Origin: Anas platyrhynchos
Lineage: Eukaryota; Chordata; Aves; Anseriformes; Anatidae
Assembly (NCBI RefSeq): GCF_047663525.1
Contig: NC_092603.1
Span: 1,694,001-1,758,000, forward strand
Length of the DNA: 64,000 bases
Direction: 5' to 3'
Translations under genes and position numbers: made by a program
Notes under the pieces: model-generated
The model's input: the letters and a program-made list of their open reading frames with translations, nothing else
Told to the model about the DNA's origin: nothing
Database searches by the model: none
Shown: one piece after another, positions 6,080 to 25,320 of the stretch
Position numbering within the stretch: the first letter of the stretch is position 1
How the letters are laid out: every line of letters begins with the position of its first letter

Positions 6080-8411
6080 TCAGATGAGGGATTCCCGGGG
6101 ATCCTGCCTGGACATGGCACCTTTCCTGCAAGGGGGGATCAGCGTGAGCTGTGCTTGCTATCCAAGGGGACTCTTTCCCTTTGGCTGGAGCCCTCACCTG
6201 TACTTCCACCACCAAGCAGCACCAATGGCAATGGCAACAGCAAGGACCAGCACCACGATAACAATGATGACAGCGGGAGTCACAATGCGGTTTTCTGGTA
6301 CGGGGAGAGAGTGGACGGCAGACGTGAGCACATGGAAGCACCAGAGAGGAAGCCACCCCCACGCCGCCCCGTCCCTAGCACCTACCCCAGGGGATGAGGA
6401 GGCTGCGGGTGCCCAGGCTGCGGTGGCGAACGCGGCAGGCGTAGCTGTGCCCATCATGGGGGGCCACGGTCAGGCCGCTGTAGACCTGGTAGGTGAAGTC
6501 GGCGTTGGGCAGGACAGCACTGGTGTTCACGGCCGGGCCCGGTGGCACTTCATGGCCGTCCCGCAGCCAGGCCACGCTGATGGGCCGTGGGTAGAAGCCG
6601 GTGATGCGGCAAACCAGCAGGAGCTGGGCTGGGCCAGCTTTGCGGGCAAAGACAGTGGCAGTGGGCAGCTCTGTAGGGTGAGAGTGAGGGCCAAGGGGAG
6701 CCCAGCAAGGGCACCACTTGGCCCCAGCATGGGGGGTGCATTGGTGTGGCCGTGCTGGGGCCACAGGGTTCTCACCTTGTCTTTCCAGGTCTGCCTTCCC
6801 ATACCTGCACAGGGCGCGGACGTGGCTCGGGCAGGTTTTGTAAAGGAGGTGCTCCACCATTTCTGTGACAGCCATCATCTCATTGAGGGAATGGCCCACC
6901 AGCTTGGCCAGCAGGGTCGACTGCTGGACAGCCCAGTACCTTCTCCTGGCCTCATACTCTACCAGGTCTCTGCCGCCCTCCCCAATTTTGGCGAAGGCGC
7001 GGCTCGTCCCATTGGGGTGAAGCTCACAGCCTGTATGGACCTGGAACACCACAGGGTCTGCAAGGAGCAGAGGTAGCAGAAGGGGGCTGTGAGCATGGGG
7101 ACAGGGGTGGCCCAAGGTGGGGGCAGCTGGGAAGGTGTGGGCAGGGCCACCATTGGCAGTGGGGTTGTGCTTCCAGGACCCTGCGCACCCTATGAGTTGT
7201 CAGGGTAGATCAAACATAAGGGCTGGGCGTTTGAGCACCACTGTGCCCCCCAGAGTGCTACCCCAAGTTTCTACTTCCATGTTGCCCCCAAACGTTCCGT
7301 CCATGTTTCTCCTTCCCTCATCAGTGCTGTGCAGGTCCTGCAGCCCTGCCAGGTTTGACAGCAGCTCCCCAGTATGCAGGGCATTTCAGCACACTGCCTC
7401 CACACCCACCAAGTAGCTGGAGCCTCCTTTGCCCTTTGGAGGCTGTCACCCCCTGCCAAGACCCTGCCAACCCTGCCCTGGTGGGAAGGGGTGCTGCGTC
7501 TGCAGCTCTCCCCATACTCACATTCCGCCTGCACCTGAATGGCCATCTCGTGCATGAATCGGATCACATTGCGCATGGCAAGCTTGAAGGAGGACATAAG
7601 CTTCACCAGGTCACCCTCAGCCATGGCCTGGTGGACCCAGGGGTAGCAGATGCGGAGGTTCCAGGTGTCCGGGTCCAGCATGTAGACGAACATGTCTGTC
7701 AGCACAGCCACCCCGGCCACCTTGGTGGAGTTGGCACTGGGGAGGAGGAAGGTCTGGAGTAGCTGGAAAAGCTTTGATTCTGCTGGGAGAGGAGATGGGG
7801 CTTCAAGAGAAGGGGGGGGAGGGGAAATGAAGGATGTACCGTGCCCCACACCACAGTGACCCCCATGCCCAAGGGACCCCTCTGGTCCCACCTGGTTCCC
7901 TGCTTTCATTGGAGGGTGTCCTGGTGCTGTGGCAAAACGCTCCAGGTGACAGCAGCACCCAAAACAACTTCTCACCGGGGCAGCTCCCCCGCAAACAGGC
8001 AACTGCTGGAAGGGGCCCACAGTACCACAGGGGGCCCAGACCCTCCCCTGGTGCCTGCAGAACAATGCCTTCAGGGGCACCCTGGCACCCTAAGCCTGCC
8101 TGGAGAGCCCCCAGCCCCATGGCTGCTCGGGCACCTAAGTCCCTACACCAGTGCTGGGCAGGACAGTGAGCCCTGACCTGGAGGCACCTCTGGGTGCTGT
8201 GGGGTGGGGGGCAACCCCTTAGTGCTGCAGACTGTCCTCCCCATGTAGGGGAAGGTCTTAGCCATGCCCCCCTTGCCAGGACTACCAGTGGAGTCCGGTA
8301 GCGGAGGGACAGGTGGGTGGGGGTCTCCCAGAGCTCCCACTTACCTTCTGTTTCTGCCCATGTCCTGTGGAAGAGAAGCAGGAGGAGGAAGAGGAGGCAA
8401 TGCAGCCGCAT
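6080..8411 (-). CDS. CD1: CD1 antigen-presenting glycoprotein, divergent lineage
   Basis: An MHC class I-like molecule expected to bind lipid antigen and beta2-microglobulin at the cell surface. The six coding exons on the minus strand are 8345-8411, 7522-7782, 6776-7057, 6386-6670, 6198-6294 and 6080-6125, all with GT-AG borders and matching phases (345 residues). Exon 1 is a signal peptide (MRLHCLLFLLLLLFHRTWA). Alpha1 (86 codons) carries an NST glycosylation site. Alpha2 begins YPVVFQ, as CD1 alpha2 domains usually do, and has the disulfide pair GCELHP/KTCPSH. Alpha3 is an Ig C1 domain (CRITGFYPRP ... YACRVRH). A valine-rich membrane helix is followed by WWWKYR and a 14-residue tail ending RESLI, without a YxxPhi motif. 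The ATG has A at -3. It differs from the plus-strand copies in alpha1, alpha2 and tail but shares alpha3. The CD1 assignment is firm; the exact orthologue is not. Confidence 0.9.
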
Positions 8412-9109
8412 GGTGGTTGGGGTGAGGCTGAAGCAGTCCGGGTGGCAGGAGGAGGAAGCATCTATGGGGTCCTAGCAGCAGCGCTCCACCAATGGGGCTG
8501 GGGTAGGGGTTTTAGGGAGGGCCTGGGCTGGAGGTCAGGAAGTACAGGATGGAGCGGAGCTGAAATGCCTCCATTTTGGGTTCCCCCTGCTGCATCTGTA
8601 CCCCCAGTGGAGGGGGACAGTCCTGTGCCACCTGCTTCACCCTGGGAATGGAGCTGCCCGGCGAGGGGGCGATGAGCAACCACAGCCTCACACACCCACA
8701 CACCCCAACCGGTGGCAGAGGGTCCACACTCGGGTCAAGGCACCCATGCCAAAAGTGGGGTGCTGCAGCACCTGTTGGGTGCTGGGCATGGGGACAACGC
8801 AGTGAGAAGGGACAGCCCCACCCCCAGCCCATCTCCCCCACTGCTCATTCCCAGGCACGTTCCCCCAGCTTGCAGTTTCTCTTCCCCTTTCCCGGGCCCC
8901 CATGCTGGGGGCAAAAGCAGAACTGAAACACAGGCAAGGAGAAGCTTGTCCCACTCTGGCTGAGGGTGGGTGGTACCAGTGCTGTCACCCCCCAAAGCCC
9001 CTTGGTGCCCTGGGGGAACCGCCTGAATCCCTAAGGGACTGCTGGGCTCCTCTGAACAGCTCTAGTGTGGTACCAGTGCCCCCGGGAAGCTCGTCCTGCA
9101 GGCAGGGCA
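8412..9109. promoter_or_regulatory. Divergent intergenic region between CD1 genes (left part)
   Basis: The minus-strand CD1 start (8411) and the first plus-strand CD1 start (9967) face away from each other with 1,555 bp between them. About 78 bases upstream of the minus-gene ATG is CCAAT on the plus strand (8489-8493), which reads ATTGG in gene sense. The plus copies have the same ATTGG about 120 bases upstream of their ATG. This suggests a Y-box-like inverted CCAAT element, but no full S-X-Y module was recognised. The long frames in this GC-rich stretch are not supported as genes. Confidence 0.4.
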
Positions 9110-9670
9110 CCCCATCACCCTCCAGGCACAACTGGGGCTGGTAGTCCCTGCTTGGATGTCCCCTGCTCTGCTGCTGGCACAGGGACAGCCCATCCAGGGC
9201 TGCTACGGGCTGAGCCCTGGCACCCTGTGACACTGAGTCAGGCCCGGGATGGGGGGATGCTGCGGTGGCCCTGTGGGCTCGGATGTGGCTCCAAAGCTCC
9301 CACTTCCTCCAGGGCTCACTCACTGCACTGTTCCACAGGGGATGGCTGTTCCTGCAGTGTCCCCATCCCTCCTGACAGGGCCACCAGTGCCTGTCAGGGA
9401 GGAGAGAGAGCAGCTGCTGGGATGCCAAAGGGCGGCCGTGGTGCCGCTAGCGAGGGAGGGAACGGGGGGACGGTGGTCCCTGCAGTCCCCTCAGGTGATG
9501 GCTGATCTTCAAAACTGCCCTTCAAGCGGCCACTGGCCCCTCAGTCTCCTTGGGGCCTCAGACCCTCAGCTCAGGTGACCAGCAGTCCCCAAAGGACTTG
9601 GTGACCATTCCTCTTTGCATTGCCCTCCGCTGAGCGCTGCTGCCCACAATCCCCTCAGTGCTTAGCTCAG
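9110..9670 (+). repeat. Left arm of the inverted repeat that encloses the CD1 array
   Basis: Read in reverse complement, this stretch matches about 23010-23620 downstream of the last CD1 copy. Shared landmarks are AACTGGGGCTGGTAGTCCCT, CAGGGACAGCCCATCCAGGG, CTGACTCAGTGT/ACACTGAGTCAG, GGCGGCCGTGGTGC and CTTCAAAACTGCCCTTCAAG-like sequence, with small indels. Its inner part (about 9340-9670) recurs, in the same orientation, upstream of CD1 copies 2, 3 and 4. Confidence 0.8.
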
Positions 9671-9845
9671 GGGATCGGGGACCCTTGGCACAAGGCCAAG
9701 CTTTGCCTCCCTCATTGTCTTGGGGTGCAAGTGCAGCCCTAGGAGAACCCACCTAGTCCCCTAGACCTGGCAGCCCTGGGTATCCCAGCCCAGCTCTTGA
9801 CAGAGGGCACCTTAGGGCCCACCCCAAAACCGCAACGCCAGCTCC

Positions 9846-9850
9846 ATTGG
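9846..9850 (+). promoter_or_regulatory. Inverted CCAAT box upstream of CD1 copy 1
   Basis: CTCCATTGGCTGTCAG places ATTGG about 120 bases before the ATG. It is conserved at the same distance in all four plus copies and has a counterpart at 8489-8493 for the minus-strand gene. A role as an NF-Y site is inferred. Confidence 0.4.
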
Positions 9851-9966
9851 CTGTCAGGGCACTCAGTGCCACCACTGATATCAGAGTCACCCTGGGGAGA
9901 AGTAAGCAGCCCACACAGCTCCATCTTCCAACTTCTGTGTTTGCCTGTGGCCTTGCTGTGGATACC

Positions 9967-11647
9967 ATGCAGCCCTGTTGCCTTCTCCTCTTCCCCTTCT
10001 TCTTCTTCTTTCCTGGGACGTGGGCAGAGCTGGAGGGTAAGTAGAAGCTCACCCCAATCTGCTCCCCTTCCTCTACTCTCCCCCCTGCTCCACATGTTGT
10101 CCTTCACAGGGCCATGGTCAAGCTGGGGGGCCAGAGCTGGGGCTGCTGAAGTGGTGGGGGGGTGCAGGGGACCCCAAGAAGTTGAGAGGGCCTGACAAAA
10201 GTGGCATCACTTTCCCCAGCTCTCTCCCCCCTCTCCAGCAGGCTCTCACATGCTCCATTTACGCCATTTCGTCACCTTCCAAAATGCTACGTCCATGCAA
10301 TTGCGGGGGCTTGGCTTCATGGGGGACATCAAAATTGGTTCCCTGGACAGCCTCACTGGGGACATCCATTATTACAAGACCTGGCTGCGTTCAGCCCTGT
10401 CCAAAGGTGACTGGGATGTCATCGAGAGCTCCATCAAGTCATACCTGCGGGATTTCAACAGCCTGGTGCAGAAGCTCACCAACCACATCAGAATGTCCTG
10501 TACGTGCCCACAGTCCCCCCTCCATTTCCAAGTGACCCCTCGGGCATGAGCCAAGTCTGGTGGGCACCTCCACAGGCCAGGCTTCTGCAGAGCCCTTTCG
10601 GATGGGGACGCAACTCAAGCGGACCCCCTAAGGCTCCTGAGGGGACGCAATACTGAACACCCCACATATCCCCTCTACCCTCCACATCCTGTCTCCCCCC
10701 AGATCCTTTTGTCTTCCAGACCTCTAGAGGCTGCCAGCTCCAGCCCAACGGGACTACCAGATCTTTCTTTGTCATTGGCTATGAGGGCCAGGACTTGATC
10801 CGGTTCCACATGAACAAGGGAACTTGGGATCGGGTGCCAGATAATGAGATGTCAGCAACCGCTGAGCATTTGTTGAACAATGCCACCACCCTCAATGAGC
10901 TGATACAAGTGTTCTTCAGTGTCACCTGTTTTGACATTTTGGAAAGGTTGATTGAGTACGGGAGGGCAGATCTGGAGAGACAAGGTAAGACCCTCCTCAA
11001 CCCTGGCACAGCCACCCGAAAGTCTCCCCTCTGACAACAGGGATAAGCAGTGCCCCTGCTGGGCTCCCCTTAGCCCTCACTCTCACCCCACAGAGCTGCC
11101 CACTGCCACCGTCTTTGCCCGCAAAGCTGGCCCAGCCCAGCTCCTGCTGGTTTGCCGCATCACCGGCTTCTACCCACGGCCCATCAGCGTGGCCTGGCTG
11201 CGGGACGGCCACGAGGTGCCACCGGGCCCGGCCCTGAACACCAGCGCTGTCCTACCCAACGCCGACCTCACCTACCAGGTCTACAGTGGCCTGACCGTGG
11301 CTCCCCGTGATGGGCACAGCTACGCCTGCCGCGTTCGCCACCGCAGCCTGGGCACCCGCAGCCTCCTCGTCCCCTGGGGTAGGTGCCTCTGGGATGGGGC
11401 TCCTGAGCTGTCCTGATGGAGCAGAGCAGGAAAGCTGATGGGCTTGTGTTCCTCAGGGCAATCAAATGCTGGGCTGATCGCAGGGCTTGTGGTTGCTCTG
11501 CTGGCAGCTGTGGTTGTGATTGGTGCACTTTGGGTGTGGAGATACAGGTAAGGCCCCTTCTGCCCTGCTGTGTACCTGGGAAATCCCTGCTGGGGAGCTC
11601 CCCAGAGCCATCCCACCATCCTCTCCTGTTTTAGGAAGCGCCATTAA
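9967..11647 (+). CDS. CD1: CD1 antigen-presenting glycoprotein, tandem copy 1
   Basis: Exons 9967-10036, 10239-10499, 10703-10984, 11094-11378, 11457-11547 and 11635-11647 join in phase into 333 residues. The product has a signal peptide (MQPCCLLLFPFFFFFPGTWA), alpha1 with an NAT site and the SSIKSYLRDF helix, alpha2 (YPFVFQ start; GCQLQPNGT and VTCFDI cysteines; NAT site), Ig-like alpha3 (ELPTATVFARK ... CRITGFYPRP ... YACRVRH) and a membrane helix (GLIAGLVVALLAAVVVIGAL). The tail is only WRYRKRH with no tyrosine or dileucine sorting motif. It is the most divergent of the four plus copies: for example MLHLRHF against MLQLLHF in alpha1, TSRGCQLQ against SSISCKLE in alpha2, and ILERLIEYGRADLERQ against ILERFIEYGRASLERH. 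The start ATG has A at -3 and lies at the same place in all copies. Expected role is presentation of lipid antigen with beta2-microglobulin. Confidence 0.92.
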
Positions 11648-12184
11648 ATGGAAGAATGAGGCCCAGCAGCTTTCTCCTGAGCACAGCAGCCCTGTTTGCT
11701 TCAAACCCTCACCTTGGGCACAACCTCCACCTCCCTCTGTTGTGACAAAGCTCCAGGCACCACCAGGAGCAAGATCATCTCAGCAGGGAGCCACAGCTGG
11801 GAAAGATGTGGTACTCAAGCCCTGCTGTTATTTGCATTATGGACAAGGATGCAAGTCCTCACCTGTTACACGTAATCACTTTGTGCCTCATGGCACTACC
11901 TATGCACCTGCTGAGGCTTCTTCAGGCACACCAGTCCCCTGTAGCAATTTCTTTCAGGTCCAGTATGATAACAGTACTGTCAGCAGGCAGTGCGCTGCAC
12001 CCCTTCCATTGTCACTTTCTAGATATTCCTCTTAAAACTGCTTTTATTAACCATATTCCAGAAATTGCTGTGCTTAACCTGACCTGTTACACACGGGGTA
12101 AGTGCACACAAGTTGTGTTTATGGCACCAAGGAGCACTGCACTCTGAGGTGATCTGAGGGAGCTGCAGGCATGGATAAAACGAA

Positions 12185-12190
12185 AATAAA
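12185..12190 (+). terminator. Polyadenylation signal, CD1 copy 1
   Basis: AATAAA lies 540 bases after the stop codon and is conserved in all four plus copies, followed by a GT/T-rich stretch (GATGTTTTTGCTAAGATCAC). Confidence 0.65.
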
Positions 12191-12529
12191 CCACTGATGT
12201 TTTTGCTAAGATCACGTGCCTTTTATAAAGGTTTCTTTGGGCTCGGGGAGGGTTTGGTCAGCTTGAGCCCAGCACTGCTGAAATTATCAGCACTAACTTC
12301 AGGGATTCAGGCGAGTTAAGAGAAGCAGTAGAAAAAGGGAGCCAAGCATTGCGGGGCTATGGATTCTGCGGCTGGGAGGGGGATCCCGGGCCCTGGGCTA
12401 GACTCCCCGTGGGGCTGGGAGGCTGTAGCACTGGTGACGCAGGGCCCTCACCACTGAGAGACCCGGTGGGAAGGGGTGCCTGGAGGAAGAGGGGGGACTG
12501 TGGCCCCTGTGGGGACCACAGGATCCAGC

Positions 12530-13150
12530 GGGTCCTGAGGGGACTGCGGGGAGCAGTGGGGAGTGGAGAGCAATGCAAAGAGGAACGGTCACTGAGGAGG
12601 TCCTGTGGGGACTGCCGGTCACCTGAGGGGACTTCAAGAACCAGCAGGGACTTGACCTGAGGGTCTGAGGCCCTGAGGAGACTGAGTGGACCGGTGGCCG
12701 CTTGAAGGGCAGTTTTGAAGATCAGCCATCACCTGAGGGGACTGCAGAGACCACCGTCCCCCCGTTCCCTCCCTCGCTAGCTGCACCACGGCCGCCCTTT
12801 GGCATCCAGCAGCTGCTCTCTTGCCTCACTGCCTTTCCTGCAGTGTACCTGTCCCTCCTGACAGGGCCACCAGTTCCTGGCAGGGAGGAGAGAGAGCAGC
12901 TGCTGGATGCCAAAGGGCGGCCGTGGTGCAGCTAGCGAGGGAGGGAACGGGGGGACGGTGGTCTCTGCAGTCCCCTCACGTGATGGCTGATCTTCAAAAC
13001 TGCCCTTCAAGCGGCCACCGGTCCACTCAGTCTCCTCAGGGCCTCAGACCCTCAGCTCAGGTGACCAGCAGTCCCCGCAGGACTTGGTGACCATTCCTCT
13101 TTGCATTGCCCTCCGCTGAGCGCTGCTGCCCACAACCCCCTCAGTGCTTT
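12530..13150. repeat. Large palindrome between CD1 copies 1 and 2
   Basis: The left arm (about 12530-12840) and right arm (about 12880-13150) are imperfect reverse complements, with the centre near 12860. Both strands therefore translate to the same stretch beginning MKGSFEDQPS (12702 on plus, 13010 on minus). Landmarks repeated in mirror are AGCAATGCAAAGAGGAA, GACCGGTGGCCGCTTGAAGG, GAAGATCAGCCATCAC and CCACGGCCGCCCTTTGGCAT. The left arm matches the 3' flank of the array and the right arm its 5' flank, so the spacer is an arm-to-arm fusion. Confidence 0.85.
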
Positions 13151-13331
13151 GCTCAGGGGATCGGGGAAACTTGGCACAAGGCCAAGCTTTGCCTCCCTCA
13201 TTGTCTTGGGGTGCAAGTGCAGCCCTAGGAGAACCCACCAAGGCCCCTAGACCTGGCAGCCCTGGGTGTCCCAGCCCAGCTCTTGACAGAGGGCACCTTA
13301 GGGCCCACCCCAAAACCGCAACGCCAGCTCC

Positions 13332-13336
13332 ATTGG
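13332..13336 (+). promoter_or_regulatory. Inverted CCAAT box upstream of CD1 copy 2
   Basis: ATTGG sits 117 bases before the first base of the ATG, in the same context (CTCCATTGGCTGTCAG) as in the other plus copies. Confidence 0.4.
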
Positions 13337-13452
13337 CTGTCAGGGCACTCAGTGCCACCACTGATATCAGAGTCACCCTGGGGAGAAGTAAGCAGCCCAC
13401 ACAGCTCCATCTTCCAACTTCTGTGTTTGCCTGTGGCCTTGCTGTGGATACC

Positions 13453-15139
13453 ATGCAGCCCTGTTGCCTTCTCCTCTTCCCCTTCTTCTTCTTCTTTCCT
13501 GGGACGTGGGCAGAGCTGGAGGGTAAGTAGAAGCTCACCCCAATCTGCTCCCCTTCTTCTACTCCCCCCCCTGCTCCACATGTCATCCTTCACAGGGCCA
13601 GGGTCAAGCTGGGGGGCCAGAGCTGGGGCTGCTGAAGTGGTAGGGGGAGGTGCAGGGGACCCCAAGAAGTTGAGAGGGCCTGACAAAAGTGGCATCACTT
13701 TCCCCAGCTCTCTTCCCCCTCTCCAGCAGGCTCTCACATGCTCCAGCTACTCCATTTCGTCACCTTCCAAAATGCCACATCCATGCAAGTGGGGGGCCTT
13801 GGCCTCGTGGGGGACATCAAAATTGGTTCGCTGGACAGACGCACCGGGGACATCCATTACCACCAGCCCTGGCTGCGTCCAGCCCTGCCCAAAGGTGACT
13901 GGGATGTCATTGAGAGCTCCATCAAGTCATACGTGCGGGATTTCAACAGCCTGGTGCAGAAGCTCACCAACCACATCAGAATGTCCTGTACGTGCCCACA
14001 GTCCCCCCTCCATTTCCAAGTGACCCCTTGGGGGCATGAGCTAAGGCTGGTGGGCACCTCCACGGGCCTGGCTTCTGCAGAACCCTTGGGGATGGAGATG
14101 CAACTCAAGCGGACCCCCTAAGGCTCCCGAGGGGACGCAATTCTGAACACCCCTCATATCCCCTCCACCCTCCACATCCTGTCTCCCCCCAGACCCTTTC
14201 GTGTTCCAGTCATCCATAAGCTGCAAGCTCGAGCCCAACAGGACTACCAGGACATTCCTTGCCATTGCCTATGAGGGCGAGGACTTGCTCCAGTTCCACC
14301 TGAACAAGGGAACTTGGGATCGGGTGCCAGATAATGAGATGTCAGCAACCGCTGAGCATTTGTTGAACAATGCCACCACCCTCAATGAGCTGATACAAGT
14401 GCTCCTCAATGTCACCTGTGTTGACATTTTGGAAAGGTTCATTGAGTACGGGAGGGCATCTCTAGAGAGACATGGTAAGACCCTCCTCAACCCTGGCACA
14501 GCCACCTGAAAGTCTCCCCTCTGACAACAGGGAGCCAAGCAGTATTCCTGCTAGGCTCCCCTTGGCTCTCACTCTCACCCCACAGAGCTGCCCACTGCCA
14601 CCGTCTTTGCCCGCAAAGCTGGCCCAGCCCAGCTCCTGCTGGTTTGCCGCATCACCGGCTTCTACCCACGGCCCATCAGCGTAGCCTGGCTGCGGGACGG
14701 CCACGAGGTGCCACCGGGCCCGGCCCTGAACACCAGCGCTGTCCTACCCAACGCCGACCTCACCTACCAGGTCTACAGTGGCCTGACCGTGGCCCCCCGT
14801 GATGGGCACAGCTACGCCTGCCGCATTCGCCACCGCAGCCTGGGCACCCGCAGCCTCCTCATCCCCTGGGGTAGGTGCCTCTGGGATGGGGCTCCTGAGC
14901 TGTGCTGATGGAGCAGAGCAGGAAAGATGACGGGCTTGTGTTCCTCAGGGCAATCAAATGCTGGGCTGATCGCAGGGCTTGTGGTTGCTCTGCTGGCAGC
15001 TGTGGTTGTCATTGGTGCACTTTGGGTGTGGAGATACAGGTAAGGCCCCTTCTGCCCTGCTGTGTACCTGGGAAATCCCTGCTGGAGAGCTCCCCAGAGC
15101 CATTCAACTATCCTCTCCTGTTTTAGGAAGCGCCATTAA
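13453..15139 (+). CDS. CD1: CD1 antigen-presenting glycoprotein, tandem copy 2
   Basis: Exons 13453-13522, 13727-13987, 14193-14474, 14586-14870, 14949-15039 and 15127-15139 splice in phase to 333 residues. The signal peptide equals that of copy 1. Alpha1 reads MLQLLHFVTFQNATSM and carries the helix SSIKSYVRDF. Alpha2 has SSISCKLEPNRT, NATTL and NVTCVDI, giving two cysteines and three glycosylation sequons. Alpha3 is Ig-like with NTS. The helix and short WRYRKRH tail match copy 1. The deduced protein is identical to that of copy 3. The gene sits between two palindromic spacers and would be expressed from its own repeat-borne promoter. All exons are intact, so it looks functional. Confidence 0.92.
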
Positions 15140-15677
15140 ATGGAAGAATGAGGCCCAGCAGCTTTCTCCTGAGCACAGCAGCCCTGTCTGCTTCAAACCC
15201 TCACCTTGGGCACAGCCTCCATCTCCCTCTGCTGTGACAAAGCTCCAGGCACCACCAGGAGCAAGATCATCTCAGCAGGGTGCCACAGCTGGGAAAGATG
15301 TGGTACTCAAGCCCTGCTGTTATTTGCATAATGGACAAGGATGCAAGTCCTCACCTGTTACACGTAATCACTTTGTGCCTCATGGCACTGCCTATGCACC
15401 TGCTGAGGCTTCTTCAGGCACACCAGTCCTCTGTAGCAATTTCTTTCAGGTCCAGTATGATAACAGTACTGTCAGCAGGCAGTGCGCTGCACCCCTTCCA
15501 TTGTCACTTTCTAGATATTCCTCTTAAGAGCTGCTTTTATTAACCATATTGCAGAAATAGCTGTGCTTAATCCGACCTGTTACACACAGGGTAAGTGCAC
15601 ACAAGTTGTGTTTATGGCACCAAGGAGCACTGCACTCTGAGGTGATCTGAGGGAGCTCCAGGCATGGATAAAACGAA

Positions 15678-15683
15678 AATAAA
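15678..15683 (+). terminator. Polyadenylation signal, CD1 copy 2
   Basis: AATAAA 539 bases after the stop, in the same context as in copy 1 (GATAAAACGAAAATAAACC). Confidence 0.65.
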
Positions 15684-16029
15684 CCACTGATGTTTTTGCT
15701 AAAATCATGTGCCTTTTATAAAGGTTTCTGTGGGCTCGGGGAGGGTTTGGCCAGCTTGGACGCAGCACTGCTGAAATTATCAGCACTAACTTCAGGGCTT
15801 CAGGCTAGTTAAGAGAAGCAGTAGAAAAAAAGAGCCGAGCATTGCGGGGCCATGGATTCTGCGGCTGGGAGGGGGATCCCAGGCCCTGGGCTAGGCTCCC
15901 CGTGGGGCTCGGAGGCTGTAGAATGGGGCACATGGGGCCCTGACCACTGAGAGACCTGGTGGGAAGGGGCACCCGGAGGAAGAGGGGGTACTGTAGCCCC
16001 TGTGGGGGGGACCACAGGACCCAGCGGGT

Positions 16030-16640
16030 CCTGAGGGGACTGCGCGGAGCAGTGGGGAGTGGAGGGCAATGCGAAGAGGAACGGTCACTGAGGAGGTCCT
16101 GTGGGGACTGCCGGTCACCTGAGGGGACTTCAAGAACCAGCAGGGACTTGACCTGAGGCTTTGAGGCCCTGAGGAGTCTGAGGGGACCGGTGGCCGCTTG
16201 AAGGGCAGCTTTGAAGATCAGCCATAACCTGAGGGGACTGCAGAGACCACCGTCCCCCCGTTCCCTCCCTTGCCAGCTGCACCACGGCCGCCCTTTGGCA
16301 TCCAGCAGCTGCTCTCTTGCCTCCCTGCCTTTCCTGCAGTGTCCCCGTCCCTCCTGACAGGGCCTCCAGTGCCTGGCTGGCAGGCGAGAGAGCAGCTGCT
16401 GGGATGCCAAAGCGCAGCCGTGGTGCAGCTGGCGAGGGAGGGAACGGGGGGACGGTGGTCCCTGCAGTCCCCTCAGGTGATGGCTGATCTTCAAAACTGC
16501 CCTTCAAGCGGCCACTGGTCCCCTCAGTCTCCTTGGGGCCTCAGACCCTCAGCTCAGGTGACCAGCAGTCCCCGCAGGACTTGGTGACCGTTCCTCTTTG
16601 CATTGCCCTCCACTGAGCGCTGCTGCCCACAATCCCCTCA
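16030..16640. repeat. Large palindrome between CD1 copies 2 and 3
   Basis: Same arm-to-arm arrangement as between copies 1 and 2. The arms lie at about 16030-16330 and 16375-16640 around a centre near 16350. The central stretch contains CCTCCTGACAGGGCCTCCAG. It is the same sequence as the spacer between copies 3 and 4. Confidence 0.85.
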
Positions 16641-16828
16641 GTGCTTTGCTCAGGGGATCGGGGAAACTTGGCACAAGGCCAAGCTTTGCCTCCCTCATTG
16701 TCTTGGGGTGCAAGTGCAGCCCTAGGAGAACCCACCCAGGCCCCTAGACCTGGCAGCCCTGGGTGTCCCAGCCCAGCTCTTGACAGAGGGCACCTTAGGG
16801 CCCACCCCAAAACCGCAACGCCAGCTCC

Positions 16829-16833
16829 ATTGG
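16829..16833 (+). promoter_or_regulatory. Inverted CCAAT box upstream of CD1 copy 3
   Basis: ATTGG in the conserved context CTCCATTGGCTGTCAG, 121 bases before the ATG. Confidence 0.4.
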
Positions 16834-16949
16834 CTGTCAGGGCACTCAGTGCCACCACTGATATCAGAGTCACCCTGGGGAGAAGTAAGCAGCCCACACA
16901 GCTCCATCTTCCAACTTCTGTGTTTGCCTGTGGCCTTGCTGTGGATACC

Positions 16950-18635
16950 ATGCAGCCCTGTTGCCTTCTCCTCTTCCCCTTCTTCTTCTTCTTTCCTGGG
17001 ACGTGGGCAGAGCTGGAGGGTAAGTAGAAGCTCACCCCAATCTGCTCCCCTTCCTCTACTCTCCCCCCTGCTCCACATACCCTCCTTCACAGGGCCATGG
17101 TCAAGCTGGGGGGCCAGAGCTGGGGCTGCTGAAGTAGTGGTGGGGGTGCAGGGGACCCCAAGAAGCTGTCAGGGCCTGACAAAAGTGGCATCACTTTCCC
17201 CAGCTCTCTCCCCCCTCTCCAGCAGGCTCTCACATGCTCCAGCTACTCCATTTCGTCACCTTCCAAAATGCCACATCCATGCAAGTGGGGGGCCTTGGCC
17301 TCGTGGGGGACATCAAAATTGGTTCGCTGGACAGACGCACCGGGGACATCCATTACCACCAGCCCTGGCTGCGTCCAGCCCTGCCCAAAGGTGACTGGGA
17401 TGTCATTGAGAGCTCCATCAAGTCATACGTGCGGGATTTCAACAGCCTGGTGCAGAAGCTCACCAACCACATCAGAATGTCCTGTACGTGCCCACAGTCC
17501 CCCCTCCATTTCCAAGTGACCCCTTGGGGGCATGAGCCAAGGCTGGTGGGCACCTCCACGGGCCTGGCTTCTGCAGAACCCTTGGGGATGGAGATGCAAC
17601 TCAAGCGGACCCCCTAAGGCTCCCGAGGGGACGCAATTCTGAACACCCCTCATATCCCCTCCACCCTCCACATCCTGTCTCCCCCCAGACCCTTTCGTGT
17701 TCCAGTCATCCATAAGCTGCAAGCTCGAGCCCAACAGGACTACCAGGACATTCCTTGCCATTGCCTATGAGGGCGAGGACTTGCTCCAGTTCCACCTGAA
17801 CAAGGGAACTTGGGATCGGGTGCCAGATAATGAGATGTCAGCAACCGCTGAGCATTTGTTGAACAATGCCACCACCCTCAATGAGCTGATACAAGTGCTC
17901 CTCAATGTCACCTGTGTTGACATTTTGGAAAGGTTCATTGAGTACGGGAGGGCATCTCTAGAGAGACATGGTAAGACCCTCCTCAACCCTGGCACAGCCA
18001 CCTGAAAGTCTCCCCTCTGACAACAGGGAGCCAAGCAGTATTCCTGCTAGGCTCCCCTTGGCTCTCACTCTCACCCCACAGAGCTGCCCACTGCCACCGT
18101 CTTTGCCCGCAAAGCTGGCCCAGCCCAGCTCCTGCTGGTTTGCCGCATCACCGGCTTCTACCCACGGCCCATCAGCGTAGCCTGGCTGCGGGACGGCCAC
18201 GAGGTGCCACCGGGCCCGGCCCTGAACACCAGCGCTGTCCTACCCAACGCCGACCTCACCTACCAGGTCTACAGTGGCCTGACCGTGGCCCCCCGTGATG
18301 GGCACAGCTACGCCTGCCGCATTCGCCACCGCAGCCTGGGCACCCGCAGCCTCCTCATCCCCTGGGGTAGGTGCCTCTGGGATGGGGCTCCTGAGCTGTG
18401 CTGATGGAGCAGAGCAGGAAAGATGACGGGCTTGTGTTCCTCAGGGCAATCAAATGCTGGGCTGATCGCAGGGCTTGTGGTTGCTCTGCTGGCAGCTGTG
18501 GTTGTCATTGGTGCACTTTGGGTGTGGAGATACAGGTAAGGCCCCTTCTGCCCTGCTGTGTACCTGGGAAATCCCTGCTGGAGAGCTCCCCAGAGCCATT
18601 CAACTATCCTCTCCTGTTTTAGGAAGCGCCATTAA
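16950..18635 (+). CDS. CD1: CD1 antigen-presenting glycoprotein, tandem copy 3
   Basis: Exons 16950-17019, 17223-17483, 17689-17970, 18082-18366, 18445-18535 and 18623-18635, all with canonical borders, give 333 residues with no difference from copy 2 in any domain. From alpha2 onward, including introns and the 3' region, the DNA also looks identical to copy 2, while the first intron differs slightly. Two genes with one product in a perfect tandem repeat can mean a very recent duplication, ongoing homogenisation, or an assembly error. The function is the same as for copy 2: a class I-like lipid-presenting molecule with a sorting-motif-free tail. Confidence 0.9.
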
Positions 18636-19173
18636 ATGGAAGAATGAGGCCCAGCAGCTTTCTCCTGAGCACAGCAGCCCTGTCTGCTTCAAACCCTCAC
18701 CTTGGGCACAGCCTCCATCTCCCTCTGCTGTGACAAAGCTCCAGGCACCACCAGGAGCAAGATCATCTCAGCAGGGTGCCACAGCTGGGAAAGATGTGGT
18801 ACTCAAGCCCTGCTGTTATTTGCATAATGGACAAGGATGCAAGTCCTCACCTGTTACACGTAATCACTTTGTGCCTCATGGCACTGCCTATGCACCTGCT
18901 GAGGCTTCTTCAGGCACACCAGTCCTCTGTAGCAATTTCTTTCAGGTCCAGTATGATAACAGTACTGTCAGCAGGCAGTGCGCTGCACCCCTTCCATTGT
19001 CACTTTCTAGATATTCCTCTTAAGAGCTGCTTTTATTAACCATATTGCAGAAATAGCTGTGCTTAATCCGACCTGTTACACACAGGGTAAGTGCACACAA
19101 GTTGTGTTTATGGCACCAAGGAGCACTGCACTCTGAGGTGATCTGAGGGAGCTCCAGGCATGGATAAAACGAA

Positions 19174-19179
19174 AATAAA
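19174..19179 (+). terminator. Polyadenylation signal, CD1 copy 3
   Basis: AATAAA 539 bases after the stop, identical in context to copy 2. Confidence 0.65.
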
Positions 19180-19525
19180 CCACTGATGTTTTTGCTAAAA
19201 TCATGTGCCTTTTATAAAGGTTTCTGTGGGCTCGGGGAGGGTTTGGCCAGCTTGGACGCAGCACTGCTGAAATTATCAGCACTAACTTCAGGGCTTCAGG
19301 CTAGTTAAGAGAAGCAGTAGAAAAAAAGAGCCGAGCATTGCGGGGCCATGGATTCTGCGGCTGGGAGGGGGATCCCAGGCCCTGGGCTAGGCTCCCCGTG
19401 GGGCTCGGAGGCTGTAGAATGGGGCACATGGGGCCCTGACCACTGAGAGACCTGGTGGGAAGGGGCACCCGGAGGAAGAGGGGGTACTGTAGCCCCTGTG
19501 GGGGGGACCACAGGACCCAGCGGGT

Positions 19526-20136
19526 CCTGAGGGGACTGCGCGGAGCAGTGGGGAGTGGAGGGCAATGCGAAGAGGAACGGTCACTGAGGAGGTCCTGTGG
19601 GGACTGCCGGTCACCTGAGGGGACTTCAAGAACCAGCAGGGACTTGACCTGAGGCTTTGAGGCCCTGAGGAGTCTGAGGGGACCGGTGGCCGCTTGAAGG
19701 GCAGCTTTGAAGATCAGCCATAACCTGAGGGGACTGCAGAGACCACCGTCCCCCCGTTCCCTCCCTTGCCAGCTGCACCACGGCCGCCCTTTGGCATCCA
19801 GCAGCTGCTCTCTTGCCTCCCTGCCTTTCCTGCAGTGTCCCCGTCCCTCCTGACAGGGCCTCCAGTGCCTGGCTGGCAGGCGAGAGAGCAGCTGCTGGGA
19901 TGCCAAAGCGCAGCCGTGGTGCAGCTGGCGAGGGAGGGAACGGGGGGACGGTGGTCCCTGCAGTCCCCTCAGGTGATGGCTGATCTTCAAAACTGCCCTT
20001 CAAGCGGCCACTGGTCCCCTCAGTCTCCTTGGGGCCTCAGACCCTCAGCTCAGGTGACCAGCAGTCCCCGCAGGACTTGGTGACCGTTCCTCTTTGCATT
20101 GCCCTCCACTGAGCGCTGCTGCCCACAATCCCCTCA
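19526..20136. repeat. Large palindrome between CD1 copies 3 and 4
   Basis: Arms at about 19526-19826 and 19871-20136, centre near 19850. It is the 3,496-bp-shifted twin of the spacer between copies 2 and 3. Confidence 0.85.
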
Positions 20137-20324
20137 GTGCTTTGCTCAGGGGATCGGGGAAACTTGGCACAAGGCCAAGCTTTGCCTCCCTCATTGTCTT
20201 GGGGTGCAAGTGCAGCCCTAGGAGAACCCACCCAGGCCCCTAGACCTGGCAGCCCTGGGTGTCCCAGCCCAGCTCTTGACAGAGGGCACCTTAGGGCCCA
20301 CCCCAAAACCGCAACGCCAGCTCC

Positions 20325-20329
20325 ATTGG
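20325..20329 (+). promoter_or_regulatory. Inverted CCAAT box upstream of CD1 copy 4
   Basis: ATTGG in the conserved context CTCCATTGGCTGTCAG, 121 bases before the ATG. Confidence 0.4.
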
Positions 20330-20445
20330 CTGTCAGGGCACTCAGTGCCACCACTGATATCAGAGTCACCCTGGGGAGAAGTAAGCAGCCCACACAGCTC
20401 CATCTTCCAACTTCTGTGTTTGCCTGTGGCCTTGCTGTGGATACC

Positions 20446-22131
20446 ATGCAGCCCTGTTGCCTTCTCCTCTTCCCCTTCTTCTTCTTCTTTCCTGGGACGT
20501 GGGCAGAGCTGGAGGGTAAGTAGAAGCTCACCCCAATCTGCTCCCCTTCCTCTACTCTCCCCCCTGCTCCACATACCCTCCTTCACAGGGCCATGGTCAA
20601 GCTGGGGGGCCAGAGCTGGGGCTGCTGAAGTAGTGGTGGGGGTGCAGGGGACCCCAAGAAGCTGTCAGGGCCTGACAAAAGTGGCATCACTTTCCCCAGC
20701 TCTCTCCCCCCTCTCCAGCAGGCTCTCACATGCTCCAGCTACTCCATTTCGTCACCTTCCAAAATGCCACATCCATGCAAGTGGGGGGCCTTGGCCTCGT
20801 GGGGGACATCAAAATTGGTTCGCTGGACAGACGCACCGGGGACATCCATTACCACCAGCCCTGGCTGCGTCCAGCCCTGCCCAAAGGTGACTGGGATGTC
20901 ATTGAGAGCTCCATCAAGTCATACGTGCGGGATTTCAACAGCCTGGTGCAGAAGCTCACCAACCACATCAGAATGTCCTGTACGTGCCCACAGTCCCCCC
21001 TCCATTTCCAAGTGACCCCTTGGGGGCATGAGCCAAGGCTGGTGGGCACCTCCACGGGCCTGGCTTCTGCAGAACCCTTGGGGATGGAGATGCAACTCAA
21101 GCGGACCCCCTAAGGCTCCCGAGGGGACGCAATTCTGAACACCCCTCATATCCCCTCCACCCTCCACATCCTGTCTCCCCCCAGACCCTTTCGTGTTCCA
21201 GTCATCCATAAGCTGCAAGCTCGAGCCCAACAGGACTACCAGGACATTCCTTGCCATTGCCTATGAGGGCGAGGACTTGCTCCAGTTCCACCTGAAAAAG
21301 GGAACTTGGGATCGGGTGCCAGATAATGAGATGTCAGCAACTGCTGAGCATTTGTTGAACAATGCCACCACCCTCAATGAGCTGATACAAGTGCTCCTCA
21401 ATGTCACCTGTGTTGACATTTTGGAAAGGTTCATTGAGTACGGGAGGGCATCTCTAGAGAGACATGGTAAGACCCTCCTCAACCCTGGCACAGCCACCTG
21501 AAAGTCTCCCCTCTGACAACAGGGAGCCAAGCAGTATTCCTGCTAGGCTCCCCTTAGCTCTCACTCTCACCCCACAGAGCTGCCCACTGCCACCGTCTTT
21601 GCCCGCAAAGCTGGCCCAGCCCAGCTCCTGCTGGTTTGCCGCATCACCGGCTTCTACCCACGGCCCATCAGCGTGGCCTGGCTGCGGGACGGCCACGAGG
21701 TGCCACCGGGCCCGGCCCTGAACACTAGCGCTGTCCTACCCAACGCCGACCTCACCTACCAGGTCTACAGCGGCCTGACCGTGGCCCCCCATGATGGGCA
21801 CAGCTACGCCTGCCGCATTCGCCACCGCAGCCTGGGTACCCGCAGCCTCCTCATCCCCTGGGGTAGGTGCCTCTGGGATGGGGCTCCTGAGCTGTGCTGA
21901 TGGAGCAGAGCAGGAAAGATGACGGGCTTGTGTTCCTCAGGGCAATCAAATGCTGGGCTGATCGCAGGGCTTGTGGTTGCTCTGCTGGCAGCTGTGGTTG
22001 TGATTGGTGCACTTTGGGTGTGGAGATACAGGTAAGGCCCCTTCTGCCCTGCTGTGTACCTGGGAAATCCCTGCTGGGGAGCTCCCCAGAGCCATCCCAC
22101 CATCCTCTCCTGTTTTAGGAAGCGCCATTAA
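20446..22131 (+). CDS. CD1: CD1 antigen-presenting glycoprotein, tandem copy 4
   Basis: Exons 20446-20515, 20719-20979, 21185-21466, 21578-21862, 21941-22031 and 22119-22131 splice in phase to 333 residues. The 5' half equals copy 3. The protein differs from copies 2 and 3 at two places: an Asn to Lys change in alpha2 (HLKKGTWD) and an Arg to His change in alpha3 (VAPHDGHS), the latter as in the minus-strand gene. The last intron and 3' region (for example GGGAGCTCCCCAGAGCCATC) resemble copy 1 rather than copies 2 and 3, so the gene is a mosaic. The short WRYRKRH tail is retained. It is intact and expected to be functional. Confidence 0.92.
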
Positions 22132-22652
22132 ATGGAAGAATGAGGCCCAGCAGCTTTCTCCTGAGCACAGCAGCCCTGTTTGCTTCAAACCCTCACCTTG
22201 GACACAGCCTCCATCTCCCTCTGCTGTGACAAAGCTCCAGGCACCACCAGGAGCAAGATCATTTCAGCAGGGAGCCACAGCTCGGTGGTACTCAAGCCCT
22301 GCTGTTATTTGCATAATGGACAAGGATGCAAGTCCTCACCTGTTACACGTAATCACTTTGTGCCTCATGGCACTACCTATGCACCTGCTGAGGCTTCTTC
22401 AGGCACACCAGTCCCCTGTAGCAATTTCTTTCAGGTCCAGTATGATAACAGTACTGTCAGCAGGCAGTGCGCTGCGCCACTTCCATTGTCACTTTCTAGA
22501 TATTCCTCTTAAGAGCTGCTTTTATTAACCATATTGCAGAAATAGCTGTGCTTAATCCGACCTGTTACACACAGGGTAAGTGCACACAAGTTGTGTTTAT
22601 GGCACTGCACTCTGAGGTGATCTGAGGGAGCTCCAGGCATGGATAAAACAAA

Positions 22653-22658
22653 AATAAA
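22653..22658 (+). terminator. Polyadenylation signal, CD1 copy 4
   Basis: AATAAA 522 bases after the stop. The slightly shorter distance reflects small deletions in the 3' region of this copy. Confidence 0.65.
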
Positions 22659-23009
22659 CCACTGATGTTTTTGCTAAGATCACGTGCCTTTTATAAAGGT
22701 TTCTGTGGGCTCGGGGAGGGTTTGGTCAGCTTGAGCCCAGCACTGCTGAAATTATCAGCACTAACTTCAGGGCTTCAGGCTAGTTAAGAGAAGCAGTAGA
22801 AAAAGGGAGTCGAGCTCTGACAGGCATTGCGGGGCCATGGATTCTGCAGCGGGGGGGGGAGGCTGGGCCCTGGGCTGGGCTCCCTGTGGGGCTGGGAGGC
22901 TGAAGCATGGGGCACGCAGGGCCCTCACCACTGAGAGACCTGGTGGGAAAGGGTGCCTGGAGGAAGAGGGGGGACTGTGGCCCCTGTGGGGACCACAGGA
23001 CCCAGCGGG

Positions 23010-23620
23010 TCCTGAGGGGACTGCGGGGAGCAGTGGGGAGTGGAGGGCAATGCGAAGAGGAACGGTCACTGAGGAGGTCCTGTGGGGACTGCCGGTCACC
23101 TGAGGGGACTTCAAGAACCAGCAGGGACCTGAGCTGTGGCTTTGAGGCCCTAAGGAGACTAAGTGGACCGATGGCTGCTTGAAGGGCAGCTTTGAAGACC
23201 AGCCATTACATGAGGGGACTGCAGAGACCACCGTCCCACCGCTCCCTCCCTCACCAGCTGCACCACGGCCGCCCTTTGGCATCCCAGCAGCTGCTCTCTC
23301 TCCTCCCTGACAGGCATTGGTGGCCCTGTCAGGAGGGACAGGGACACTGCAGGAACGGCCATCCCCTGGGGAACATTGCAGCGAGTGAGCCCTGGAGGAA
23401 GCGGGAGCTTTGGGGCCACGTCTGAGCCCACAGGGCCACCACAGCATCCCACTTCCCTGGCCTGACTCAGTGTCACAGGGTGCCAGGGCTCAGCCCGCAG
23501 CAGCCCTGGATGGGCTGTCCCTGTGCCAGCAGCAGAGCAGGGGACATCCAAGCAGGGACTACCAGCCCCAGTTGTGCCTGGAGGGTGATGGGAGCTGTGG
23601 GGACCAAGGGTTACCTGAGC
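23010..23620 (-). repeat. Right arm of the inverted repeat that encloses the CD1 array
   Basis: Reverse complement of about 9110-9670. Its inner part (about 23010-23300) is the same 3' flank that follows copies 1-3. The outer part (about 23330-23620) appears only at the two ends of the array and was probably the original flank, cut away at the internal junctions. Confidence 0.8.
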
Positions 23621-25320
23621 CTAGAGAAGGGTCCCCTGCCCTGGGGTTGCTTGGAACCATACCAGGTCCCTGTCCTAACATGTGGGGTCAAGGGGCAGCA
23701 TGGCCAGGGCCCTGTGGTGCTGAGGGGTGTGGGGTAGCTTCCAGAGCCTCCCAGTATGGGTGGGTCTCCCCACTCACACCCTCCCGTCACTCACAGGGGC
23801 AATGTGTCCTGTCCATGCAGCAGGGCGCTGGGCTCTGCTCCGCGCTGCCACGTTGGGTGTCACTGGGGAGGAACGAGCGGGATGGGGGGTACTGAGGCAT
23901 AGAGGTGAGAATTGTGGTGTGGTCCTGCGGGTACCATAGGGCTGGGGTCACTCCATGACCCCCAAGTGTCTCCGGCAGCCACCTGCCCTCAGGCTGTTGG
24001 TGAAAGCCGAGGACATTCCTCAGAACGAGCAGCGGGGCTGGGCCGGAGCAGTCTCTCTCCCACAACATGGGGCTGCACCCCCCTCTCCCCCCAACATACC
24101 CAGCTCAACATCTGCCCTACAGCCTCCTATGCATTCCATGCCCCCCCCTACACTGTGCTCACCAGCTCCACACAAGCCCCATTGCCCCCAGCTCTTCACA
24201 TGCCCATGCGCACCCAGCCCCAAAAGTGTTAATACCCCCTCAGCCTCTCTTTCTCCCCTCAGCCCCATATGTGCCCATGCCCTACAACTTCCCTTGTGTC
24301 CTCCAGCCCCACACAAGCCCCATGCGTCCTCCCAAGCCCCATGTGCCCCATGCCAGCTCCTAGCCCCATCTTAGCCCCCCTGCCCTCCCCACATCCTATA
24401 CTCACCAGCCCTGCACGTGAACCCCAGCACCTCACATGTCCTATCCCCCCCCTTACCCCCCCAGCCCCACACGTGACCCCCAGCCCCGCCGGGTTGGGCC
24501 CGCCCGGCCGGAGGCGAAGAGCAAAACATGATTTCAAGCCAGCAAACCCGGGCGTCCGGCCCCCCCGGCTCTGCCCCACACCCCCAGGCCCTAGGGACCC
24601 AGACATCCAGCCTCCCCCCACCCCGCTCTGCCCCACAACTCCAGCCTTGGGGGACGCAGGCATGCGAAGAACCCTGCCCTGCACCTCACACCCCACTGTC
24701 CCCCAGGGACCCAGGCGCCCGGGTGTCTCCAGCCCCCACGCAGTGGACCCAAGCCGAGCCTACTCCCCCTGCCCCGTGTCCCGCAGCAACAACAACAACA
24801 GCAGTGGGGGGGGGGAACATGGAGGGGGGAGCCCAGGGCCAAGCTGAGTCATGGCCCCACCCGGCCCCGTCTGTGGCGCAGCCCCACGGCATGGTCCCAC
24901 ATCACAGTCCCACAGTCTGCCCCCCCCAGCCCCCCCAGAATAGCCCCATAGCACAGCCCTGCAGCTTGGTCCTAAAGCCCCAAGCCTTGGCCCCATAGCA
25001 AAGCTCTGCAGTCCCACAGCACTGCAGCACAGCCCCATGGCCCAGCTCTCCCCCCCTCTACCCCTGTCACACTCTTGCAGCCAAGCCCACAGTGTGGCCC
25101 CCAGATCATGGTGCCCCCTGCCCATGGCTGGTCCCACAGCACAGCCCCATGGCCTGGCCCCACTGCACCACTGCACTGGGGATGGGACAGGGACAGGCCC
25201 AGCAAGCCCCGCTTCGTGTTTGTGCCTCGCTGAGCCAGCACTGCCCTAGGTCTTGGAGCTGTGGGATGGCATTCAGAGCCATGGGGTAGCTGGGGCTGGG
25301 GGTACACAGATGGAGGGGGA
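23621..25320. other. Gene-poor, C-rich low-complexity stretch
   Basis: No gene is recognised. From about 24060 to 24470 the plus strand is a degenerate repeat of CAGCCCCACA and GCCCCATG units, and from about 24850 to 25200 of CACAGCCCCATGGC units. The many long frames on both strands come from this biased composition and contain no domain. Confidence 0.6.

Follow-up and report, generated by a model that had tools for sequence, protein, structure and literature searches.

Here we describe an array of CD1 genes in a 64,000-nucleotide stretch of Anas platyrhynchos DNA (contig 17, 1694001-1758000; hereafter the window), in which four CD1-1-type genes follow each other as direct copies separated by palindromic spacers. 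The array (9349-23309) is made up of four direct units of about 3.49 kb each (U1 to U4) between inverted arms, with a spacer across each unit border (S1 to S3), and all four units (4/4) are on the plus strand. The length of the units is nearly constant (3,483 or 3,493 bp; Table 1), as is expected of an array enlarged by unequal homologous exchange. Each of the four array genes has six exons, GT-AG introns and an open product of 332 residues; exon ends were placed by hand in U2 and transferred to the other units via alignment. Chicken CD1-1 is the top match among solved structures, with phmmer values of 2.5e-123 for U1 and 6e-125 for a U4-like query whose exon joins were typed by hand, and this best match, together with the presence of alpha1, alpha2, alpha3 and membrane exons (the membrane exon recognized by eye), identifies the genes as avian CD1-1. 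Taken by themselves, the chicken CD1 matches would point to a bird as the host.

The array is bounded by an inverted repeat. In a self-BLAST of the window, positions 9111-9658 align with 23592-23012 of the minus strand over 582 columns at 85.6% identity (E 0), in agreement with a sequence-only reading which had placed inverted ends at 9110-9670 and 23010-23620 and was right to within about 30 bp. When the genome (1.26 Gb, 42 contigs) was searched by a method that scores the best candidates only and, ignoring very common words, may miss these, there were 8 places that matched the left arm, 8/8 of them within the array, and two that matched its outer 238 bp, both of them array ends. The arms are of two types. 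Right-type arms carry 29 + 4 bases that left-type arms lack (two indels), and, over the inner 92 columns that the arms share, 10 sites are fixed between left and right across six distinct arms (n = 6, since the S3 arms equal the S2 arms). Every unit holds one arm of each type, so that each CD1-1-type gene sits between inverted flanks, as the sequence-only reading had proposed. Since the arm types are fixed, with one of each per unit, the inverted flanks appear to be older than the array, and we take this order as demonstrated as far as arm sequence can demonstrate it. The inverted arms have defined outer ends, as terminal inverted repeats would if CD1 had been captured by a transposon or a foldback element. 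However, this origin is disfavored because the arms were found in this array only (8/8 places for the left arm and 2/2 for the outer arm, within the reach of the search just described); moreover, one of the six left-arm frames, with stops masked, gave no Pfam match, and no target-site duplication was seen by eye at 9111/23592. We consider it very improbable.

Between the genes, right and left arms join to form palindromes some 610 bp long, with computed centers at 12856, 16352.5, and 19848.5, close to the 12860, 16350, and 19850 of the sequence-only reading. The self-comparison of the window, which that reading had named as its check, gives inverted matches at the three spacers as well as between the array ends; the spacers match themselves at 80% in S1 (E 4e-177) and at 77% in S2 and S3 (E 6e-149). 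The spacers are true fusions of right arm to left arm (297 bp and 310 bp, respectively, in S1), although the earlier description of them as arm-to-arm holds for the inner arm only, the outer 238 bp being confined to the ends of the array. The ungapped arms of S1 (12650-12833/12879-13062) are 97% identical with 45 nt between them, and those of S2 (16146-16303/16402-16559) and S3 (19642-19799/19898-20055) are 91% identical with 98 nt between them; all 611 bases of S3 are identical to S2. Folded as single-stranded DNA, S1 reaches -343.4 kcal/mol against a shuffle mean of -124.0 (z -48.9) and S2 -304.7 kcal/mol against -129.2 (z -29.0), with 20 shuffles each. At thresholds of 200 nt, 75% identity, and a gap of up to 20 kb, a 264-kb region surrounding the locus (77 N included) gave 98 inverted-pair rows, many of which overlap within one repeat-rich stretch; the three spacers are the only self-pairing rows, and the next smallest gap in the 264 kb is 580 bp. 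The palindrome anatomy is well above chance. A scan of 8400-24500 against Rfam gave zero structured-RNA matches at gathering scores. According to a review, inverted Alus with a 52-bp spacer frequently stall replication forks in E. coli only, and with a spacer of 12 bp the stalling extends to yeast and primate cells (PMC7999016). Because the ungapped arms are 45 nt (S1) or 98 nt (S2, S3) apart, fork stalling at the present spacers would be doubtful.

Table 1. Positions of the CD1 genes, units, arms, and spacers within the window
Feature	Position	Strand	Remarks
Left end arm	9111..9658	+	Complete; outer 9111-9348 at array ends only; inner 9349-9658 in all units
Right end arm	23012..23592	-	Inverted copy of left end arm, 85.6%
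Unit U1	9349..12831	+	3,483 bp; ~5% from U2-U4
Unit U2	12835..16327	+	3,493 bp
Unit U3	16331..19823	+	3,493 bp; first 1,470 bases = U4; from 17539 on = U2
Unit U4	19827..23309	+	3,483 bp; 106 mismatches vs U2
CD1-1-type gene, U1	9967..11647	+	6 exons, 332 aa, open
CD1-1-type gene, U2	13453..15139	+	6 exons, 332 aa, open
CD1-1-type gene, U3	16950..18635	+	Coding sequence identical to U2
CD1-1-type gene, U4	20446..22131	+	8 nt, 2 aa from U2
Spacer S1	12535..13144		Right arm of U1 and left arm of U2 fused; center ~12856
Spacer S2	16031..16641		Palindrome; center ~16352
Spacer S3	19527..20137		Identical to S2; center ~19848
U3 switch interval	17539..17800		End of alpha1-alpha2 intron and first part of alpha2 exon
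CD1-2-type gene	6197..8411	-	Ends approximate, last exon not set; divergent from U1

In all three spacers, the junction between right and left arm falls at identical bases. One junction common to all three spacers indicates that the fusion occurred once and was then copied, and independent formation of each palindrome is ruled out by the identity of the three junctions. Reflected onto the left arm, the right breakpoint at 23309 falls on 9395, and the left breakpoint at 9349 is 46 bp away from that position; the probability of such closeness was 0.019 in a simulation with uniform breakpoints in intergenic stretches, the ranges of which were chosen by the analyst. No direct-orientation homology was found between the left and right end arms. 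Since they match in inverted orientation only, the first duplication did not arise by recombination between direct repeats there. The position of the junction, read from the two arms, fits a hairpin-related origin. It could also be that a random tandem duplication had its breakpoints in the arms by chance, in which case the flanks would be incidental and all later changes ordinary concerted evolution. Both tandem arrays and gene conversion are frequent in the major histocompatibility complex (MHC), and when breakpoint pairs are drawn at random from the same chosen intergenic ranges, about 12% hit both arms. However, only 2% come this near to mirror positions, and it is this closeness that makes a chance duplication seem rather improbable to us.

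Another explanation for the mirror positions is that longer or complete arms were fused first, into a near-perfect palindrome that later lost its center by deletion, so that shorter arms now surround an asymmetric one; the mirror positions would then reflect decay of the palindrome and not the duplication itself. A loss of this kind would agree with a junction that is mirror-like with an offset of 46 bp and with an outer arm that is gone from all three spacers and kept at both array ends, and one junction in all spacers permits a single deletion ahead of amplification. It requires, however, an additional step, and outer-arm sequence is retained in none of the spacers (0), so we regard it as unlikely, though worth keeping in view. 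A further, tentative idea to which we give about the same weight is that the arms acted as an amplification cassette, in which the stem of paired arms would be cut or copied across and the gene released or re-copied with a palindromic join at mirror positions. This would give direct tandem copies, unlike the inverted ones that inverted-repeat amplification is known to yield, and in this MHC-linked array for lipid presentation the joins would keep recombining arm with arm. Origin-dependent inverted-repeat amplification (ODIRA) was rejected, as no inverted middle copy is present and 0/4 copies are inverted. The spacers are palindromic, as the new inverted junctions of ODIRA would be, yet, judged by the arm types, the flanks had been inverted beforehand.

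It seems that the array grew by a process different from the one that founded it. A run of 3,758 identical bases with a period of 3,496 joins U2, U3, and U4, and U3 is an exact hybrid of U4 and U2 with a single switch point; this point falls inside the gene, and the closest palindrome center is 1.2-1.45 kb away. Judged by its composition, U3 would be the product expected of unequal exchange between neighbors. We assume that the array enlarges by homologous unequal exchange between direct units, in which the palindromic junction would be copied passively, and that U3, the newest copy, may have arisen by U4/U2 exchange inside the gene. We infer that crossing-over, and not another homologous mechanism, lies behind this growth; a palindrome break resolved at a distance could still account for the U3 switch. 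The proposal of the sequence-only reading that the palindromes drove the increase in copy number is partly supported: a role of the inverted arms in the founding event is plausible, its junction being near-mirror, but growth copy by copy at the palindromes is not supported, given the shared junction and a U3 switch inside the gene. The identical run is longer than one unit and extends at one period across U2/U3/U4, and the U2 and U3 coding sequences are identical, which would also be seen if the assembly had falsely duplicated one unit, most likely U3, of a true array of three. Recent unequal exchange yields the same pattern, however, and U1, U2, and U4 are distinct (173-174 mismatches between U1 and the other units, and 106 between U2 and U4), so that the palindromic junction and no fewer than three of the sequences would be left unexplained by a false duplication, unless alleles were placed in tandem. 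We think an artefact of this kind improbable.

The S1 arms are homogenized near the center, with 4/175 differences there and 15/88 further out (Fisher p 3e-5); the unfused end arms have 19/175 and 14/88 differences in the same two zones, and near the center S1 differs from the array ends (4/175 versus 19/175) with p 0.002. Sites fixed between left and right are absent from the center-proximal 176 columns (0) and make up 10/92 further out (p 2e-5). The arms within S1 may thus exchange sequence near the center. In S2, and equally in S3, there are 15/175 differences near the center and 13/88 further out. At the array ends, the outermost 120 bp of the two arms have 1 difference, compared with 48 mismatches (~11%) in the rest of the arm, and this near-identity may reflect exchange across 14 kb.

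Taken together, we favor as reasonably probable an account in which inverted flanks came first, one arm fusion followed, and homologous unequal exchange then copied the junction passively while the S1 arms exchanged sequence. A single CD1-1 gene would first have acquired inverted arms of about 550 bp on both sides. Right and left arm would then have been joined in one event, at positions that nearly mirror each other, and the resulting head-to-tail duplication would carry a palindrome at its junction. The arms may have been paired as a hairpin or stem when this junction formed, a step which we infer, or the center of a longer fused palindrome may have been lost later. Several points weigh against this account. 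The mirror closeness is that of a single event with p only about 0.02, and the fold of 9330-9430, with a z of -0.33 against shuffles, lends no support to a hairpin formed locally at the left breakpoint. The homogenization is clear in S1 only, because the 15/175 of S2 is hardly below the 19/175 of the ends, and a tree of the center-proximal columns leaves the two S1 arms (S1_L and S1_R) ungrouped, which argues against a simple full conversion. In addition, the placing of the inverted flanks first is read from the arms themselves, and a false duplication in the assembly may account for U3.

Tandem gene arrays are known to undergo unequal crossing-over, which is expected to produce an exact hybrid such as U3 between neighbors; compared with ordinary arrays of this kind, the palindromic spacers are the sole distinguishing feature here. 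Inverted repeats also help to form the junctions of amplified segments, as described for inverted-repeat amplification (PMC11790251), and the present arms resemble them in this respect; amplification of that type gives inverted copies, in contrast to the four direct copies found here. The homogenization of the S1 arms near their center is similar to the intrachromosomal gene conversion of the human Y palindromes P1-P8, as outlined in PMC7999016. Unlike the gene-bearing arms of the Y palindromes, the arms here are about 0.3 kb, lie between genes, and are repeated as the spacers of a direct array. No description of a CD1 arrangement of this kind was found among the titles and abstract openings of the matches listed for avian CD1, goose CD1, palindromic arrays, and inverted-repeat amplification, and there were no literature matches for CD1 with inverted repeat and tandem duplication or for duck CD1 with telomere-to-telomere. 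The processes are already known, and the arrangement looks new for CD1. If the account that we favor is true, a direct tandem array of an immune gene can start from inverted flanks and keep an ordered trail of inverted flanks, one mirror-position fusion, and homologous growth with arm exchange.

With four open CD1-1 genes beside a CD1-2-type gene, the locus bears on the avian diversification of lipid presentation. The proteins of U1 and U2 differ at 37/332 residues, 14 of them in alpha1, 21 in alpha2, 2 in alpha3, and none elsewhere, so that alpha1 and alpha2 together hold 35/37 of the differences; over the whole gene, nonsynonymous divergence (dN) is 0.052 and synonymous divergence (dS) 0.084. 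The minus-strand neighbor is assigned to CD1-2 by its alpha1 domain, which matches chicken CD1-2 at 2.6e-21 and CD1-1 at 1.4e-4 and has zero match to U2 at E 1e-3. The MHC-linked chicken CD1-1 and CD1-2 (PDB 3jvg and 3dbx) are thus paralleled by array genes closest to CD1-1 and an adjoining gene with a CD1-2-like alpha1. In the alpha3 region of the CD1-2-type gene, positions 6378-6725 align at 94% identity, in inverted orientation, with 14531-14878, 18027-18374, and 21523-21870 in U2-U4; judged by eye, the alpha3 sequences of chicken CD1-1 and CD1-2 are likewise nearly the same. Positions 9816-9850 and 8489-8523, which precede the start codons of U1 and CD1-2, respectively, show an inverted likeness (35 bp, 83%), perhaps a shared promoter element.

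From about 28 kb on, after the array, the open frames contain EGF and FN3 domains. Among the five frames given, FN3 is above the curated cut-off in two and weak in one, EGF occurs in one, and one has neither. We assigned the name tenascin-X to these frames, which fits the chicken gene order: in chicken, the class III region contains TNXB, after which comes a CD1 gene pair (PMC4988538, PMC8813856). The same articles describe two CD1 genes in chicken, compared with four copies of CD1-1 with palindromic spacers in the present array. The duck MHC has been placed on chromosome 17 in a paper the main text of which makes no mention of CD1 (PMC10845735).

A further CD1 gene lies away from the MHC contig, on contig 8 at about 20,425,093-20,426,368, and has exons of the alpha1, alpha2, alpha3, and membrane types; its best solved relative is chicken CD1-1, and it is relevant to the debate over the location of CD1 genes in birds. 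Two stretches on contig 21, at 8,752,376 and 8,763,536, are weakly alpha1-like (34% and 30%, respectively) and perhaps belong, we assume, to the protein C receptor family. On contig 17 itself, in the stretch that begins about 38 kb ahead of the window and ends about 1 kb ahead of it, there are inverted repeats of 3.0-3.5 kb at 92-94% identity with offsets stepping by about 84 bp, which may point to zinc-finger genes.

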